From a virus: a stretch of DNA of 22,237 bases. Position 1 is the stretch's first letter, and every line of letters begins with the position of its first letter. Below, in pieces: positions 6,646-14,586 of the stretch. The translations under genes and the position numbers were made by a program. The DNA lies in the IMG/VR virus record IMGVR_UViG_3300027915_000003, positions 1 through 22,237 of that record. One strand, written 5' to 3'. The notes below the pieces were generated by a model. It saw only the letters and a program-made list of their open reading frames with translations. It did no database searches and was not told the DNA's origin.

Positions 6646-6788
6646 TGTTGCTTCTCTGGACAAGCGCGGGCATCTTTATCCCGCCAGCACCGCCAATCCG
6701 CGCCTATGCAACGATCTCGTTCGCGCTGAACAATGATGGCGCGCTTTCGCTCAGTCTGCCGAATGACGCAGAAGGATCGGTACAATAA
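6645..6788 (+). CDS. Small hypothetical protein (47 aa)
   Basis: This short frame fits exactly between its neighbours: the ATG overlaps the previous TAA (TAATG) and its own TAA overlaps the next ATG. The product starts MLLLWTSAGIFIPPAPP and then has FALNNDGALSLSLPNDAEGS. The hydrophobic, Pro-rich N-terminus could be a membrane or packing segment. The perfect coupling on both sides is the main support that it is real. The function is unknown. Confidence 0.55.
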   Translation: MLLLWTSAGIFIPPAPPIRAYATISFALNNDGALSLSLPNDAEGSVQ

Positions 6789-7081: not shown

Positions 7082-7668
7082 GTAGATATGCAAGCCTACC
7101 AGCGCTCATCGATTATTTATCCCCATCGGGCGTGCTGGGCACATACAATGATGGACTGTTGCAAGATAGCCTTGACGAAGCCGAGAGCGCCATTAACGAC
7201 TACACGCGACGGCAGTTCGCAGGTACAGCCGGCACTATTTATGTGAACAGATTTAGTCAACGCTTTGTCAAAAATCAGGCGCTCTATCTCGAAAATGACA
7301 TACACACGCTCGTGAGCCTGACGAATGGGGATAGTCAGAACATACCCGTCGGATCGGTATGGCTAGAGCCGCGCAACGCCGGCCCGCCATATCGATTGCT
7401 CAGGTTGCATTCGGCCTATGTCTACGTTTGGAATACGGATAGTGATGTGATCGTGTCCGGCACATTCGGTTTTAGCACCGTCCCGCCAGCGGCCATAAGC
7501 CGCGCGGCGGTAGAACTGGCAGCGTACTACTTCAGGATTAAGGATGTCGGCCCTCTTGATACCGCTGGCGTGAATGCCGCTGGGGAGGTGATGTATCCCA
7601 AAAACATGCCTGATTATGTGCGGAGTAAGCTAGAGCTGTATCGGAGCCGGAGCGGTGGCATCGTTTGA
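7078..7668 (+). CDS. Head-tail connector (adaptor) protein, gp6-like
   Basis: The 196-residue protein is likely the adaptor ring below the portal. The N-terminal part, YASLPALIDYLSPSG...LLQDSLDEAESAINDYTRR, is the helical start typical of gp6/YqbG-like connectors. The middle has the beta insertion VWLEPRNAGPPYRLLRLHS, and helices AAISRAAVELAAYYFRIKD and YVRSKLELYRSR follow. It starts at ATG 7078 inside an ATGA overlap; an upstream in-frame start is disfavoured by this coupling. Its stop codon lies within the promoter-like motif TTTGACA. It is the last gene of the head block. The family match is by pattern and position. Confidence 0.75.
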   Translation: MSRYASLPALIDYLSPSGVLGTYNDGLLQDSLDEAESAINDYTRRQFAGTAGTIYVNRFSQRFVKNQALYLENDIHTLVSLTNGDSQNIPVGSVWLEPRNAGPPYRLLRLHSAYVYVWNTDSDVIVSGTFGFSTVPPAAISRAAVELAAYYFRIKDVGPLDTAGVNAAGEVMYPKNMPDYVRSKLELYRSRSGGIV

Positions 7669-7689: not shown

Positions 7690-7750
7690 GAGGGACGCTT
7701 CGGCGTTGTGGGCAATAGGCGAGTGACGGGACGCACTCGCCTATTCTTTT
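7690..7750 (+). ncRNA. Candidate ~60-nt small RNA with cUUCGg hairpin and terminator
   Basis: Downstream of motif A lie a hairpin, ACGC-TTCG-GCGT (7695-7706), whose loop is the very stable cUUCGg tetraloop type, and then the 12-bp terminator stem. The space between motif A and the terminator holds no reading frame of note. A short RNA is one reading; the sequence may instead only be the tail of the head transcript. Confidence 0.3.
7714..7745. terminator. Bidirectional rho-independent terminator
   Basis: A perfect 12-bp stem, AATAGGCGAGTG (7714-7725) with CACTCGCCTATT (7734-7745), has an 8-base loop. It is followed by CTTTT on the + strand; on the minus strand, pairing also begins with the A/T-rich arm. 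It sits between the + strand head operon and the convergent minus-strand gene, whose stop codon (7741-7743) is inside the stem. Confidence 0.85.
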
Positions 7751-8067
7751 GCCTCTTTTCCGGCAGGCGTACAAACGGCGATAAACGCGCGGCAATGCTG
7801 CTCAGGCGTGGCGCAAAGCAATCCCCATGTTATATTTGATAGGTCGTTTCCCATATTAAACACTTCGTCTATGTAAGCATCTTGCAATCCACGCCGCTCG
7901 ATCTCTTTCAGCAGCAACGCCACTTGCCGCGCATCGTCCGAGTAGTACGGCAAGTCAAAGCCGTTTCGCCCAGCCGTGCCAATCTGACAGCCGCGCACGT
8001 TCGCAGCGTCTTTGACCACGCGAAAGCCGAGTGCGCGCGCAACGGCGATATCCAGCTCTTTACTCAT
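7741..8067 (-). CDS. Phage ABA sandwich-like protein
   Basis: This is the only clear minus-strand gene. The start is ATG at 8067 with the excellent site AGGGAGGGG; a longer in-frame start further upstream would run through the promoter region. The 108-residue product shows the layout of the small phage 'ABA sandwich' family: ELDIAVARALGFRVV at the N-terminus, LPYYSDDARQVALLLKEIE in the middle (compare P-x-YS-x-D...A), and a strand/helix pair WGLLCATPEQHCRAFIAVC at the end. Members are widespread in phages and have no established role. It is transcribed from the divergent promoter it shares with the CRISPR array and ends in the bidirectional terminator. Confidence 0.75.
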   Translation of the reverse strand: MSKELDIAVARALGFRVVKDAANVRGCQIGTAGRNGFDLPYYSDDARQVALLLKEIERRGLQDAYIDEVFNMGNDLSNITWGLLCATPEQHCRAFIAVCTPAGKEAKE

Positions 8068-8089
8068 ATCCCCTCCCTGTCTTACAATC

Positions 8090-8108
8090 AGTATAGCACG
8101 CTTGACAA
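8090..8108 (-). promoter_or_regulatory. Minus-strand promoter-like motif B- for the ABA gene
   Basis: Read on the minus strand: TTGTCA, then CGTGC, then TATACT (8095-8090), identical to motif A apart from one base in the first box. The expected start near 8083 gives a leader of about 16 bases that just holds the Shine-Dalgarno site of the gene starting at 8067. Confidence 0.55.
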
Positions 8109-8120
8109 GTATGGTACTAT
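8102..8120 (+). promoter_or_regulatory. Plus-strand promoter-like motif B+ before the CRISPR array
   Basis: TTGACA at 8102-8107 and TACTAT at 8115-8120, preceded by TG. It shares the palindrome CTTGACAAG (8101-8109) with the minus-strand motif, so the two promoters overlap back to back. Transcription starting near 8127 would enter the array directly. Confidence 0.5.
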
Positions 8121-8130
8121 GTAAGACAGG

Positions 8131-8154
8131 CGAATAGGGGTGCAACCATATTCG
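8131..8154. repeat. 24-bp imperfect palindrome at the array start
   Basis: CGAATAGGGGTGCAACCATATTCG pairs with its own complement at 10 of 12 positions and overlaps the first 15 bases of repeat 1. The last 16 bases of a near-identical palindrome (GTTGCAACCCTATTCG) recur at 8497-8512, after the last spacer-sized unit. Confidence 0.6.
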
Positions 8155-8460
8155 GCTCGTGGAGAGCACTGAAACATTGTGGCCTATCGGTCAACTCGGC
8201 GGGGATAGTGTCTTCCTAATCATTCGGCTCGTGGAGAGCACTGAAACAGCGCAACCGCATACGCTTTCGCGGGGGCTTGCGACTTCCTAATCATTCGGCT
8301 CGTGGAGAGCACTGAAACTCTTCATTCAGAGGCTGATTGCATTCAGGGCAGACTTCCTAATCATTCGGCTCGTGGAGAGCACTGAAACTGCCCCATAATG
8401 AGATCTGGAAAGACGACGTACAAGCTTCCTAATCATTCGGCTCGTGGAGAGCACTGAAAC
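8140..8460 (+). CRISPR. CRISPR array: five 36-bp repeats, four spacers plus a fifth spacer-sized segment, no cas genes
   Basis: Repeats lie at 8140-8175, 8212-8247, 8283-8318, 8353-8388 and 8425-8460. Copies 2-5 are identical over 36 bases, beginning CTTCCTAATCATTCGGCTCG and ending GAGCACTGAAAC. Copy 1 is identical only over the last 26. Spacers are 36, 35, 34 and 36 bases and unrelated to each other. A further 37 bases (8461-8497) lead to a partial match of the start of copy 1. Inside the repeat, GCTC/GAGC forms a 4-bp stem with a 5-base loop. The 3' end ACTGAAAC resembles the 8-nt crRNA handle of type I/III systems, which places the leader on the left, next to motif B+. No cas gene is in the window, so any function would depend on host Cas proteins. 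Confidence 0.93.
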
Positions 8461-8496
8461 GCGTGAATGGGGATAGCGACCGCACGCCGGTATTGA

Positions 8497-8512
8497 GTTG
8501 CAACCCTATTCG
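8497..8512. repeat. Half-palindrome after the array (partial repeat 6 or inverted flank)
   Basis: GTTGCAACCCTATTCG is the inverted complement of 8131-8146 with 15 of 16 matches, and its last 15 bases also match 8140-8154 directly with 2 differences. It is flanked by TATTGA and TCAATA, themselves an inverted pair. It lies one spacer length after repeat 5. Confidence 0.55.
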
Positions 8513-8542
8513 TCAATACATACTCACCCCTCGGGGCTTCTC

Positions 8543-8588
8543 GGCGGGCAGCGAACAGAGCGTTACGGCGCTTTTCTTGTTGCCCGCC
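8543..8588 (+). terminator. Probable terminator of the CRISPR transcript
   Basis: GGCGGGCA (8543-8550) pairs perfectly with TGCCCGCC (8581-8588), enclosing an inner AGCG/CGCT hairpin (8559-8572). A short T run (CTTTCC) follows. It lies between the array and the next gene. The large loop and short T tract lower confidence. Confidence 0.5.
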
Positions 8589-8610
8589 TTTCCTATTGCC
8601 AGGACGGATT

Positions 8611-8772
8611 ATGCCAGGAACGATCACAACAAGCCTGCTCAACTTTCGCGCCACGCCTGATCAGCGTGGCACAATCCAGCGTGCGGCAGCCGAGTGTCAT
8701 CAGACGATGAGCGACCTGATGCGCGCGGCGGTGCTGGAATATGCCGCGCGGCGATTGGAGGAAAAGCGATGA
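8611..8772 (+). CDS. Ribbon-helix-helix-like small DNA-binding protein
   Basis: The 53-residue product has a short strand, TSLLNFRATPDQR, then helices GTIQRAAAECHQ and TMSDLMRAAVLEYAARRLEEK. This is the layout of MetJ/Arc-type ribbon-helix-helix proteins and of DUF1778-like antitoxins (N-F-R-A-T-P...A-A...T-M-S-D-L-...A-V-L-E). Such proteins act as dimers that insert the beta ribbon into the DNA major groove. ATG at 8611 has AGGA about 7 bases upstream, and its TGA overlaps the next ATG. No toxin partner is evident in the next gene. It could regulate the nearby symmetric promoter; that is inference. Confidence 0.6.
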   Translation: MPGTITTSLLNFRATPDQRGTIQRAAAECHQTMSDLMRAAVLEYAARRLEEKR

Positions 8773-9020: not shown

Positions 9021-10246
9021 CAAAGCTCAGGGTACTTTGGGCGTCAGACGCGCCATGGGCTACCTCAGGCTACGCAGTTGAAACGGCGCTTACGTGCGTG
9101 CGATTGAAAGAGCATTGCGACCTGGCGCTGATCGCCACATTCGGGCTACACGGCGGTATGCAAGAATGGAATGGCATACCCGTGTTCCCTGGCGGCGCTG
9201 ATGCCTTTAGCAACGACGTGATCGGCAAGGCGGCGAAAGCGTGGCAGGCTGATTGCATTATCACGTTGAAAGATGCGCTCGTGTTTCAGCCGCAAACATT
9301 TAACGGCTTTCGCTGGATTCCGATGACACCATGCGATCACGATCCGAGCACGCCGCAAGTGATTGAGCGCGTGCGCCAGAGCTACCGACCTATCGCCTAC
9401 GCGCCGCACGGCTTTCGCGCGCTGCGCAAGGCCGGCCTCGATCCACTTTACGCTCCCCACGCCTACGATCCCGCTATCTACTACCCAATGGAGAAGGCCG
9501 ACGCGCACAAGACGCTGGGATTGCCTGACGATCTGTTCATCATTGGCACGGTTGCGGTGAATAGGGGCGGCTTGCCAAGCCGCAAAGCCTGGATCGAAAA
9601 CCTAGAGGCATTCGCCCAATTCGCACACGACAAACCGAATGTGCGCTACTTCGTGCATACTGATCTTGCAGATGACAACTACGAGGCAGGCGTGACATTG
9701 CGTGTGATTATCGCGCAACTCGGCATAGCGGATAAGGTACTCTTCTGCGACCAAGAACGCTATCGCTATGGCGGCTTTCCGCCTGAGTATATGCGCGCCT
9801 ACTACAATAGCATCGATGTGCTGAATGCTGTCTCGAATGGTGAAGGATTCGGCATTCCGGTACTCGAAGCGCAAGCGTGCGGCGTGCCGGTGATCGTCGG
9901 TGATTGGTGCGCGCACGAGGACTTATGCTTTGCGGGCTGGAAAGTGGCAAAGCATGAGGCGCACCATTTCTACGATCAGCAGCAGGGCTATGTGTTCATT
10001 CCCAATCCAGCGGCAATAGCGGATAGAATGGGGCGCGCGTATACTGCGCTCTATCCGCCATGCGGCGTTGACTGGCGCGACGTTATGCGCGATCAGGCCA
10101 TAGCAGGCGCAACGCCATACCAGATCGATACGGTCATTCGCGACCATTGGATACCGCTCTTGGCAGAGCTAGAGCGCGACATTCACAATCCACGATCACG
10201 CGGCGTGCTGCGGATCATTCGCAGGGAAGAGGTGTTTTCGATATGA
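9017..10246 (+). CDS. GT4-like (GT-B fold) glycosyltransferase
   Basis: The 409-residue protein is a retaining-type glycosyltransferase that would transfer sugar from a nucleotide donor. The N-terminal Rossmann-like half begins KLRVLWASDAPWATSGYAVE, with the glycine-containing acceptor loop TSGYA (16-20). The C-terminal donor half begins near residue 165 (LPDDLFIIGTVAVNRGGLPSRK) and contains EGFGIPVLEAQACGVPVI (276-293) with the E-x7-E pair E276/E284, which contacts the donor sugar. No signal peptide or membrane segment is seen, so it should act in the cytoplasm. It overlaps both neighbours by ATGA. Acceptor and donor cannot be told from sequence. It is one of three glycosyltransferase domains in this cassette. 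Confidence 0.87.
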   Translation: MTKLRVLWASDAPWATSGYAVETALTCVRLKEHCDLALIATFGLHGGMQEWNGIPVFPGGADAFSNDVIGKAAKAWQADCIITLKDALVFQPQTFNGFRWIPMTPCDHDPSTPQVIERVRQSYRPIAYAPHGFRALRKAGLDPLYAPHAYDPAIYYPMEKADAHKTLGLPDDLFIIGTVAVNRGGLPSRKAWIENLEAFAQFAHDKPNVRYFVHTDLADDNYEAGVTLRVIIAQLGIADKVLFCDQERYRYGGFPPEYMRAYYNSIDVLNAVSNGEGFGIPVLEAQACGVPVIVGDWCAHEDLCFAGWKVAKHEAHHFYDQQQGYVFIPNPAAIADRMGRAYTALYPPCGVDWRDVMRDQAIAGATPYQIDTVIRDHWIPLLAELERDIHNPRSRGVLRIIRREEVFSI

Positions 10247-13073: not shown

Positions 13074-13231
13074 GCGAAGAAACGAACTGCAAAGTTCATG
13101 CCGCATCGCGCAATTTATTGCGCTTCTATCACGAGCGCCCGATCTGGCAACAGCAAATCATAAAATGGCTACTCGGCTACAAGGCGTGCCATTATCTTGA
13201 AATGCTTGATAGTTTGTTTGAGGATATGTAA
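13070..13231 (+). CDS. Hypothetical small protein (53 aa)
   Basis: ATG 13070 overlaps the previous TGA, and its TAA overlaps the next ATG (TAATG at 13229-13233). The product is helical and rich in aromatic residues (RNLLRFYHERPIWQQQIIKW, LEMLDSLFEDM). It lies directly before the GT17-methyltransferase fusion and is co-translated with it. The function is unknown. Confidence 0.5.
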   Translation: MSEETNCKVHAASRNLLRFYHERPIWQQQIIKWLLGYKACHYLEMLDSLFEDM

Positions 13232-14586
13232 TGATAGTCGATGCGGTAACGTTTTTCAACGAGCTTGATCTGCTCGAATTGCGCCTATCCGAGCTTGATC
13301 CTGTTGTGGATAGATTTGTCATTGTCGAAGCGAATAGGACGCATAAAGGCACGCTCAAGCCGCTCCATTATGCCGAGAACGCAGCGCGATTTGCACAGTG
13401 GCATGACAAGATCGTGCATATCGTTTGCCCGCTTATGGACGACGGCGACGGTCTGCCAGCCATTCGGCGGCGCGAAATGACACAGCGCAATGCTATCTTG
13501 CAAGGCGTACGCGATTGTGCCGACGACGATATTATCCTGATAAGCGACTGTGACGAAATACCGCGCTCACATCTTGTGCCGACACACCTCGACGATGGCA
13601 TTGTTGCGACCTATCTCCAGACGCTGTATTATTACAATCTCAACACGAACGCGCCGGATCGGATATGGCCTGGGACGCGCGTCTGCCGTGTTGCCGATGC
13701 GCGGGCATTAAGCCCGCATGTCATTCGCAATGGGCTAGGACAGCCGGATAGCATCTATCCGCTGTATCGACATATCAGCGGCGGCGGCTGGCATTACTCC
13801 TACTTTGGCGGCACGGTGGCAATCCACAATAAGATGACTGAATTTCTGCATCAAGAGCTTGTCACTGACGATAACGTGACAGCGCGGGCGATAGCCGAGA
13901 AAGTGGCAGCCGGAAAAGATATCTGGGGCCGGCCACACGAGCAAGAGTTTGTCATTGGGGCTGCTGTTGACTTGCCGTATACGATCCTACGTGACTTGCC
14001 TAAATGGACACGGCATTTCGCACACGGCTGGCAGCCTGAATTCCACGAGGACTGGTACAGCGGGCCGCAAGCACTCTACGTCGGCCAGCTCGCACGCACA
14101 GCGCCCGAAGGCGGAATTGTGGAGATCGGCTGCTGGGAAGGTCGCTCGGCTATCGTGCTCGCGCAAATGATTGCGCCGCGTGAATTGTACTGCGTTGATC
14201 ACTGGCAGGGCAATACGGACGAAAATCCCGATCACGAGAGCGGCAAGATTGCGGCTGAACGCGATGTGTTCGATACATTTGCACTCAATATGCACTATTG
14301 CACAGCGAGTAACTACACAACGATATATCGTTCTTGGCAGGAATGGATTGTCGAATGGCCGCGCTGTACTGATGACAGCCGGATTGCCTTTCTGCATCTT
14401 GACGCCTCGCATGATCGTGCCAGCGTGCGCGATTGTCTACTCGCAATCACGCCGTTTCTCGTTGACGGCGCAATCTTGTGCGGTGATGATGCCTTCGATG
14501 AGCGGGTGCGTGACGGCGTGCGTGACGTGTTTCCTGATGCGGAGGTGATTGGGGAGCGTCTATGGAAAGTGGAGTATCATGCCTAA
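13231..14586 (+). CDS. GT17-like glycosyltransferase fused to SAM-methyltransferase
   Basis: The 451-residue two-domain enzyme. Residues 1 to about 265 match the GT17 family pattern: FFNELDLLELRLSEL (8-22), VVDRFVIVEANRTHKGTLKPL (25-45) and ILISDCDEIPR (102-112) with a D-x-D. Residues about 285-451 form a class I methyltransferase: GGIVEIGCWEGRSAIVL (294-310) is motif I, LYCVDHWQGN (319-328) motif II, and IAFLHLDASHDRASVRDCL (385-403) the acidic/His region, much as in the stand-alone enzyme at 11979. Eukaryotic GT17 enzymes add N-acetylglucosamine to mannose; the bacterial and phage forms have mostly unknown acceptors. The fusion suggests consecutive glycosylation and methylation of one product. 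No membrane segment is seen. Confidence 0.85.
   Translation: MIVDAVTFFNELDLLELRLSELDPVVDRFVIVEANRTHKGTLKPLHYAENAARFAQWHDKIVHIVCPLMDDGDGLPAIRRREMTQRNAILQGVRDCADDDIILISDCDEIPRSHLVPTHLDDGIVATYLQTLYYYNLNTNAPDRIWPGTRVCRVADARALSPHVIRNGLGQPDSIYPLYRHISGGGWHYSYFGGTVAIHNKMTEFLHQELVTDDNVTARAIAEKVAAGKDIWGRPHEQEFVIGAAVDLPYTILRDLPKWTRHFAHGWQPEFHEDWYSGPQALYVGQLARTAPEGGIVEIGCWEGRSAIVLAQMIAPRELYCVDHWQGNTDENPDHESGKIAAERDVFDTFALNMHYCTASNYTTIYRSWQEWIVEWPRCTDDSRIAFLHLDASHDRASVRDCLLAITPFLVDGAILCGDDAFDERVRDGVRDVFPDAEVIGERLWKVEYHA

Follow-up and report, generated by a model that had tools for sequence, protein, structure and literature searches.

Published phage mini-arrays usually have one or two spacers, a customary size and not a mechanistic requirement, and repeats identical to those of the host. 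The published mini-arrays of phages and archaeal viruses target related viruses (PMC6858448, PMC11656645, PMC7099407). Phage CRISPR mini-arrays with leaders other than those of the host were described by Faure et al. 2019, as related in PMC6858448 and PMC7099407. The window, i.e. the whole stretch of DNA that was analysed (22,237 nucleotides, IMG/VR virus record IMGVR_UViG_3300027915_000003), carries an array with five spacers among its virion genes. We think, with moderate confidence, that a Chloroflexota phage carries here an array without cas genes and uses it with the type I system of the host in trans, probably against competitors.

The array and its genomic setting

The array on the plus strand at 8140-8496 is a genuine CRISPR array with five repeats of 36 bp and five spacers of 34-36 nt, and the repeat coordinates confirm what an earlier note on this DNA had claimed, five 36-bp repeats with unrelated spacers of this length. 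Repeats 2 to 5 (8212-8247, 8283-8318, 8353-8388 and 8425-8460) are identical and read CTTCCTAATCATTCGGCTCGTGGAGAGCACTGAAAC. Repeat 1 (8140-8175) diverges in its first ten 5' bases and is the same as the others in its 3' 26 nt. The spacers are, in order, 36, 35, 34, 36 and 36 nt long (8176-8211, 8248-8282, 8319-8352, 8389-8424 and 8461-8496), and the fifth is followed by GTTGCAACCCTATTCG (8497-8512) without a full repeat behind it. A GCTC/GAGC stem and a ACTGAAAC handle are kept in every repeat, and in repeat 1 both lie intact within the 26 nt. All five repeats match the Rfam family CRISPR-DR19 at 28.2 bits, or 23.1 bits for repeat 1, with a gathering score of 40, so the matches lie below it. 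Phage mini-arrays are recognised by at least two repeats with unique spacers in a viral genome, and this is what the window contains.

The virus record codes for an HK97-type major capsid protein, a head-tail adaptor, glycosyltransferases, a minor tail protein and a tape measure protein. The array lies mid-contig with phage sequence on either side, and the position that the earlier note gave it, between a head-tail connector and glycosyltransferases, is right: a phrog_442 head-tail adaptor is found upstream and glycosyltransferases downstream. One gene of this phage glycosylation cassette (13231-14586) codes for a family 17 glycosyltransferase fused to a methyltransferase domain. No cas gene was found among the scanned ORFs of the window, as had also been claimed, but the 22-kb record may be incomplete and the phage could have cas genes in its other parts.

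Directly before the array, at 8102-8120 on the plus strand, there is a promoter-like motif of the type TTGACA-N7-TGGTACTAT, followed by TGTAAGACA. It reads TTGACA-N7-TACTAT, has the look of an extended -10 promoter, and would be expected to drive transcription of the array. A promoter-like motif of the array's own had been proposed, and the motif does recur at other gene starts of the phage, but its spacing differs from the standard 16-18-spaced sigma-70 site and it is not such a site. The form TTGACA-N7/8-TGnTATACT is seen at gene starts at 7665, 8102 and 15801 in the window, at 6769 and 7858 in the relative L009, and at 7025 in L003. Divergent from the array promoter, on the minus strand at 7741-8067, lies a gene for a small protein of no known family, which differs by about 8% in the otherwise near-identical phage fragment L002. 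From its position only, it is a possible anti-CRISPR candidate.

The likely terminator that had been noted 3' of the array is a very stable hairpin at 8543-8588 (plus strand) in the leader of the gene that follows. The segment 8525-8597 folds at -37.9 kcal/mol with a z of -5.3, and the hairpin could be either a terminator or an mRNA structure. This GC-rich leader precedes a gene (8611-8772, plus strand) for a small ribbon-helix-helix-like protein, NikA-like or TacA1-like, and the corresponding leaders of the relatives L008 and L009 look alike, with a different sequence.

Host group, repeat family and a second phage

The genome G105 contains homologues of ORF1, the capsid protein and the adaptor, in the same order and with 44, 37 and 34% identity, and the best capsid matches in the phage collection reach about 32% or less, below the 37% of G105. 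Because these homologues keep the gene order and exceed the matches in the phage collection, the comparison of the genes points to a phage that infects Chloroflexota. A cyanobacterial host was also considered, as the Microcystis phage Mae-JY09 has a glycosyltransferase in common with the window at 38%, which is insufficient.

The exact 26-mer of the phage repeat could not be found in the GTDB contig collection (genome_contigs), nor the 26-mer at up to three mismatches in the 158 genomes of the class of G105 and G312, nor the 36-mer at up to three mismatches in 400 genomes of the phylum. A relaxed repeat pattern gave, among the matches listed for genome_contigs, no stored locus within an array, which says little. 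A looser pattern led to a chromosomal array in G312 with the repeat CTTCCCAACCCATCGGCTCACGATTGAGCACTGAAAT. The core CGGCTC-N(3-8)-GAGCACTGAAA is present in 27 of the 158 genomes of this Chloroflexota class, which is probably Chloroflexia, with up to 408 copies per genome and often in large arrays, even if some of the 27 genomes have only one or a few copies. The reversed pattern, used as a control, gave no match in the same class, and none of the 119 genomes of a second class had the core.

Next to the array of G312 are genes for WYL, Cas3, Cas8a, Cas7, Cas6 and Cas1, and judged by its genes the system is I-A-like. The array of G121 adjoins Cas8b, Cas7/Cst2, Cas5b, Cas3 and Cas1. A Cas8b like that of G121 is also present in G137, and on the same grounds both systems are classified as type I-B. 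The repeat of the phage is similar to those of the I-A-like and of the I-B arrays. Of a host with cas genes and the same repeat, what has been found is the repeat family on cas-bearing chromosomes (G121, G137 and G312), and the exact repeat in none of the searched genomes.

In viral contigs the core was found in 11 stretches and, apart from L002, almost all of these were isolated single matches. One of the 11 belongs to a second phage, L200 (IMGVR_UViG_3300043543_000422), which has two complete repeats around one 37-nt spacer at 188-298. An endolysin gene follows directly downstream, and the same contig codes for the terminase large subunit (TerL) and the portal. Its repeat, CTTTCAACAATTTCGGCTCACGGTAGAGCACTGAAAC, is identical to the chromosomal repeat of G121, G137 and G209. 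The similarity between L200 and the window is weak, 35% for ORF1 and 25% for the capsid.

Origin, variation and possible function

The leaders of the three host arrays are alike, and neither of the two phage leaders, that of the window or that of L200, resembles them. A leader unlike that of the host is the bacteriophage form of a mini-array, and the window array has it, as judged on the leaders of three genomes and not of the true host. At the left edge of the array the near-palindrome CGAATAGGGGTGCAACCATATTCG (8131-8154) overlaps the 5' part of repeat 1, and its left part is the inverted-repeat partner of 8497-8512, which marks where the insert stops on the right. The first bases of repeat 1 (8140-8154) are nearly duplicated in 8497-8512, over about 15-16 bp, and when the outer flanks are joined they form an almost perfect inverted repeat of 25 nt. 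Because of the near-duplicate at both edges, we infer from this one pair of junctions that a fragment of a host array may have been captured into a leader hairpin of the phage, joined at ATTCG. A simple off-target insertion by Cas1-Cas2 seems less likely, as the flanking near-duplicate of 15-16 bp is shorter than the repeat.

The near-identical fragment L002 has at the same site repeat 1 with spacer 1 and a single full repeat with spacer 5. It thus has two spacers in all and lacks three repeat-spacer units, with spacers 2, 3 and 4 absent. From the promoter to 9016 it is identical to the window save the three missing units, and further out 33 of 393 and 37 of 341 positions differ. The simple reading is that the units were lost by deletion between repeats, with a gain in the lineage of the window or a collapse by the assembler as possible alternatives. 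In L008 and L009 the region in front of the ribbon-helix-helix gene that compares with it has no array, and the gene content differs there too. In L009 an inserted ORF region (7971-8692) separates the leader from this gene, near the site of the array in the window, and by eye it is like a homing-type endonuclease.

The array could be used as follows. During infection it would be transcribed from the phage-type promoter motif, and Cas6 of the host would cut within the 3' part of each repeat, which holds the stem and the handle. This would give at most five crRNAs, the last of them from a spacer with no full repeat behind it. Such processing in trans is plausible because the GCTC/GAGC stem and the handle are kept in each repeat, and a type I Cas6 and Cascade would be the partners, as suggested by the cas genes that adjoin the arrays of the repeat family. 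The crRNAs would load into the Cascade of the host, and Cas3 would destroy DNA with the protospacers, most likely that of competing phages or other mobile elements. New spacers would come by recombination with host arrays and old ones go by deletion between repeats, and not by Cas1-Cas2 addition at the leader.

None of the spacers had a target above chance among virus, plasmid and host genomes, and direct nucleotide matches to phage and plasmid records gave nothing meaningful. Because few relatives have been sequenced, the missing targets are weak evidence. In the opposite direction, 1207 host spacers matched the window and its relatives no better than reversed spacers did. The 14 bases that spacer 3 has in common with 9246-9259, seen in the earlier note, are there, but over its full length this spacer has no match above chance. 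Spacer 5 was compared with the adaptor gene (VNGDSDRTPVL with NGDSQNIPV, 19 of 36 nt), a likeness that shuffled controls reached as well, and no other virus came up in a degenerate scan for sequences like spacer 5. The best match of spacer 1 to a cyclophilin gene of some class members was 27 of 36, of which about one is expected by chance in 158 genomes according to a rough binomial estimate. The reverse complement of spacer 1 (8176-8211) reads TIPAELTDRPQ, which is like a cyclophilin motif. The proposal that the spacers are aimed at rival phages was not borne out by any match to a rival above chance, and that part of the reading is based on precedent (PMC6858448, PMC11656645).

The absence of detectable targets would also agree with an RNA decoy, in which the main effect would be that non-matching crRNAs flood Cas6 and Cascade of the host and blunt its CRISPR immunity, like an RNA anti-CRISPR (Racr) with several repeats. 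Non-targeting crRNA is also reported to weaken type I-F interference (PMC10651486), and the array sits behind a promoter-like motif and adjoins the small divergent gene of no known family. Racrs are however solitary repeat units, and here there are five ordered repeats with five distinct spacers of normal length, and repeats 2 to 5 are identical and without changes of the decoy type, with repeat 1 alone differing, and only in its 5' part. We regard the decoy as unlikely. It is also improbable, in our view, that the array is an inert passenger without function in the phage, a decaying piece of some host array that was caught by chance. The lack of a host-like leader, the incomplete terminal repeats, the three units missing from L002 and the absence of the array from L008 and L009 are what one would expect of it, but four identical repeats and a first repeat with stem and handle intact in its 26 nt are not, and neither is the array in so dissimilar a phage as L200.

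An assembly artefact, by which a phage contig was fused with a host array or the assembler altered the length of the array, has to be kept in mind for metagenome contigs, where short identical repeats are prone to mis-joining and where the three units missing from L002 could be a collapse. Both junctions recur in L002, in other respects a recombinant strain of its own, the leader and the cas genes of the host are absent, and the array lies mid-contig between phage sequences, so we consider such an artefact very improbable. An array that borrows the effectors of the host, as the earlier note proposed, is the explanation that we prefer. It agrees with a cas-less array in a phage, with cas-bearing chromosomes of the same repeat family, with the host-identical repeat of L200 and with the phage-type promoter motif; what did not come forward is a host with the exact repeat or a matched rival. 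More tentatively, one could picture that an internal fragment of a host array was captured into the leader of a phage gene via the short common stretch ATTCG, that the phage promoter times multi-spacer crRNAs with the phage genes, that phage and host arrays exchange spacers by way of the conserved 3' portion of the repeat, and that Chloroflexota phages such as that of the window and L200 have used arrays repeatedly.

Comparison with known systems

We could not find any earlier report of cas-less phage arrays in Chloroflexota phages in the literature. The present arrays extend them to Chloroflexota viruses. There are two dissimilar cases, and for the phage of the window both a form with five spacers and one with two. 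A concrete hypothesis comes from the junctions, that a phage may acquire an array without Cas1-Cas2 and bring it under the control of a phage promoter. The repeat family ties viral contigs that otherwise lack a host to a host group.

The chromosomal type I-B and I-A-like arrays of G121, G137 and G312 have the same CGGCTC-loop-GAGCACTGAAA core and a similar spacer length. Unlike the array of the window, they are built of about a hundred to several hundred units and adjoin cas genes, and in the three genomes compared they have a common leader. Racrs and solitary repeat units (PMC10651486) are likewise host-type repeats borne by phages behind a promoter-like motif, but a Racr is a solitary repeat unit and the window has five repeats and several spacers. 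The mini-CRISPR arrays of the archaeal viruses SPV1 and SPV2 (PMC6858448) are also intergenic and cas-less, with use of host effectors inferred. They have however host-like leaders and mutual protospacers, whereas the window array has a phage-type leader and no target was found for it.

Closest are the phage mini-arrays with non-host leaders, which, in what PMC6858448 and PMC7099407 tell of them, are likewise cas-less, with repeats of the host family and a leader unlike that of the host, and with spacer change by recombination suggested. In the same accounts they have one or two spacers, against five in the window, two in L002 and one in L200, and a repeat identical to that of the host. The repeat of L200 is exactly that of chromosomal arrays, and for the phage of the window the repeat family was found in the searched genomes. 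The array is most likely a new example of this known kind of phage mini-array, larger than usual.
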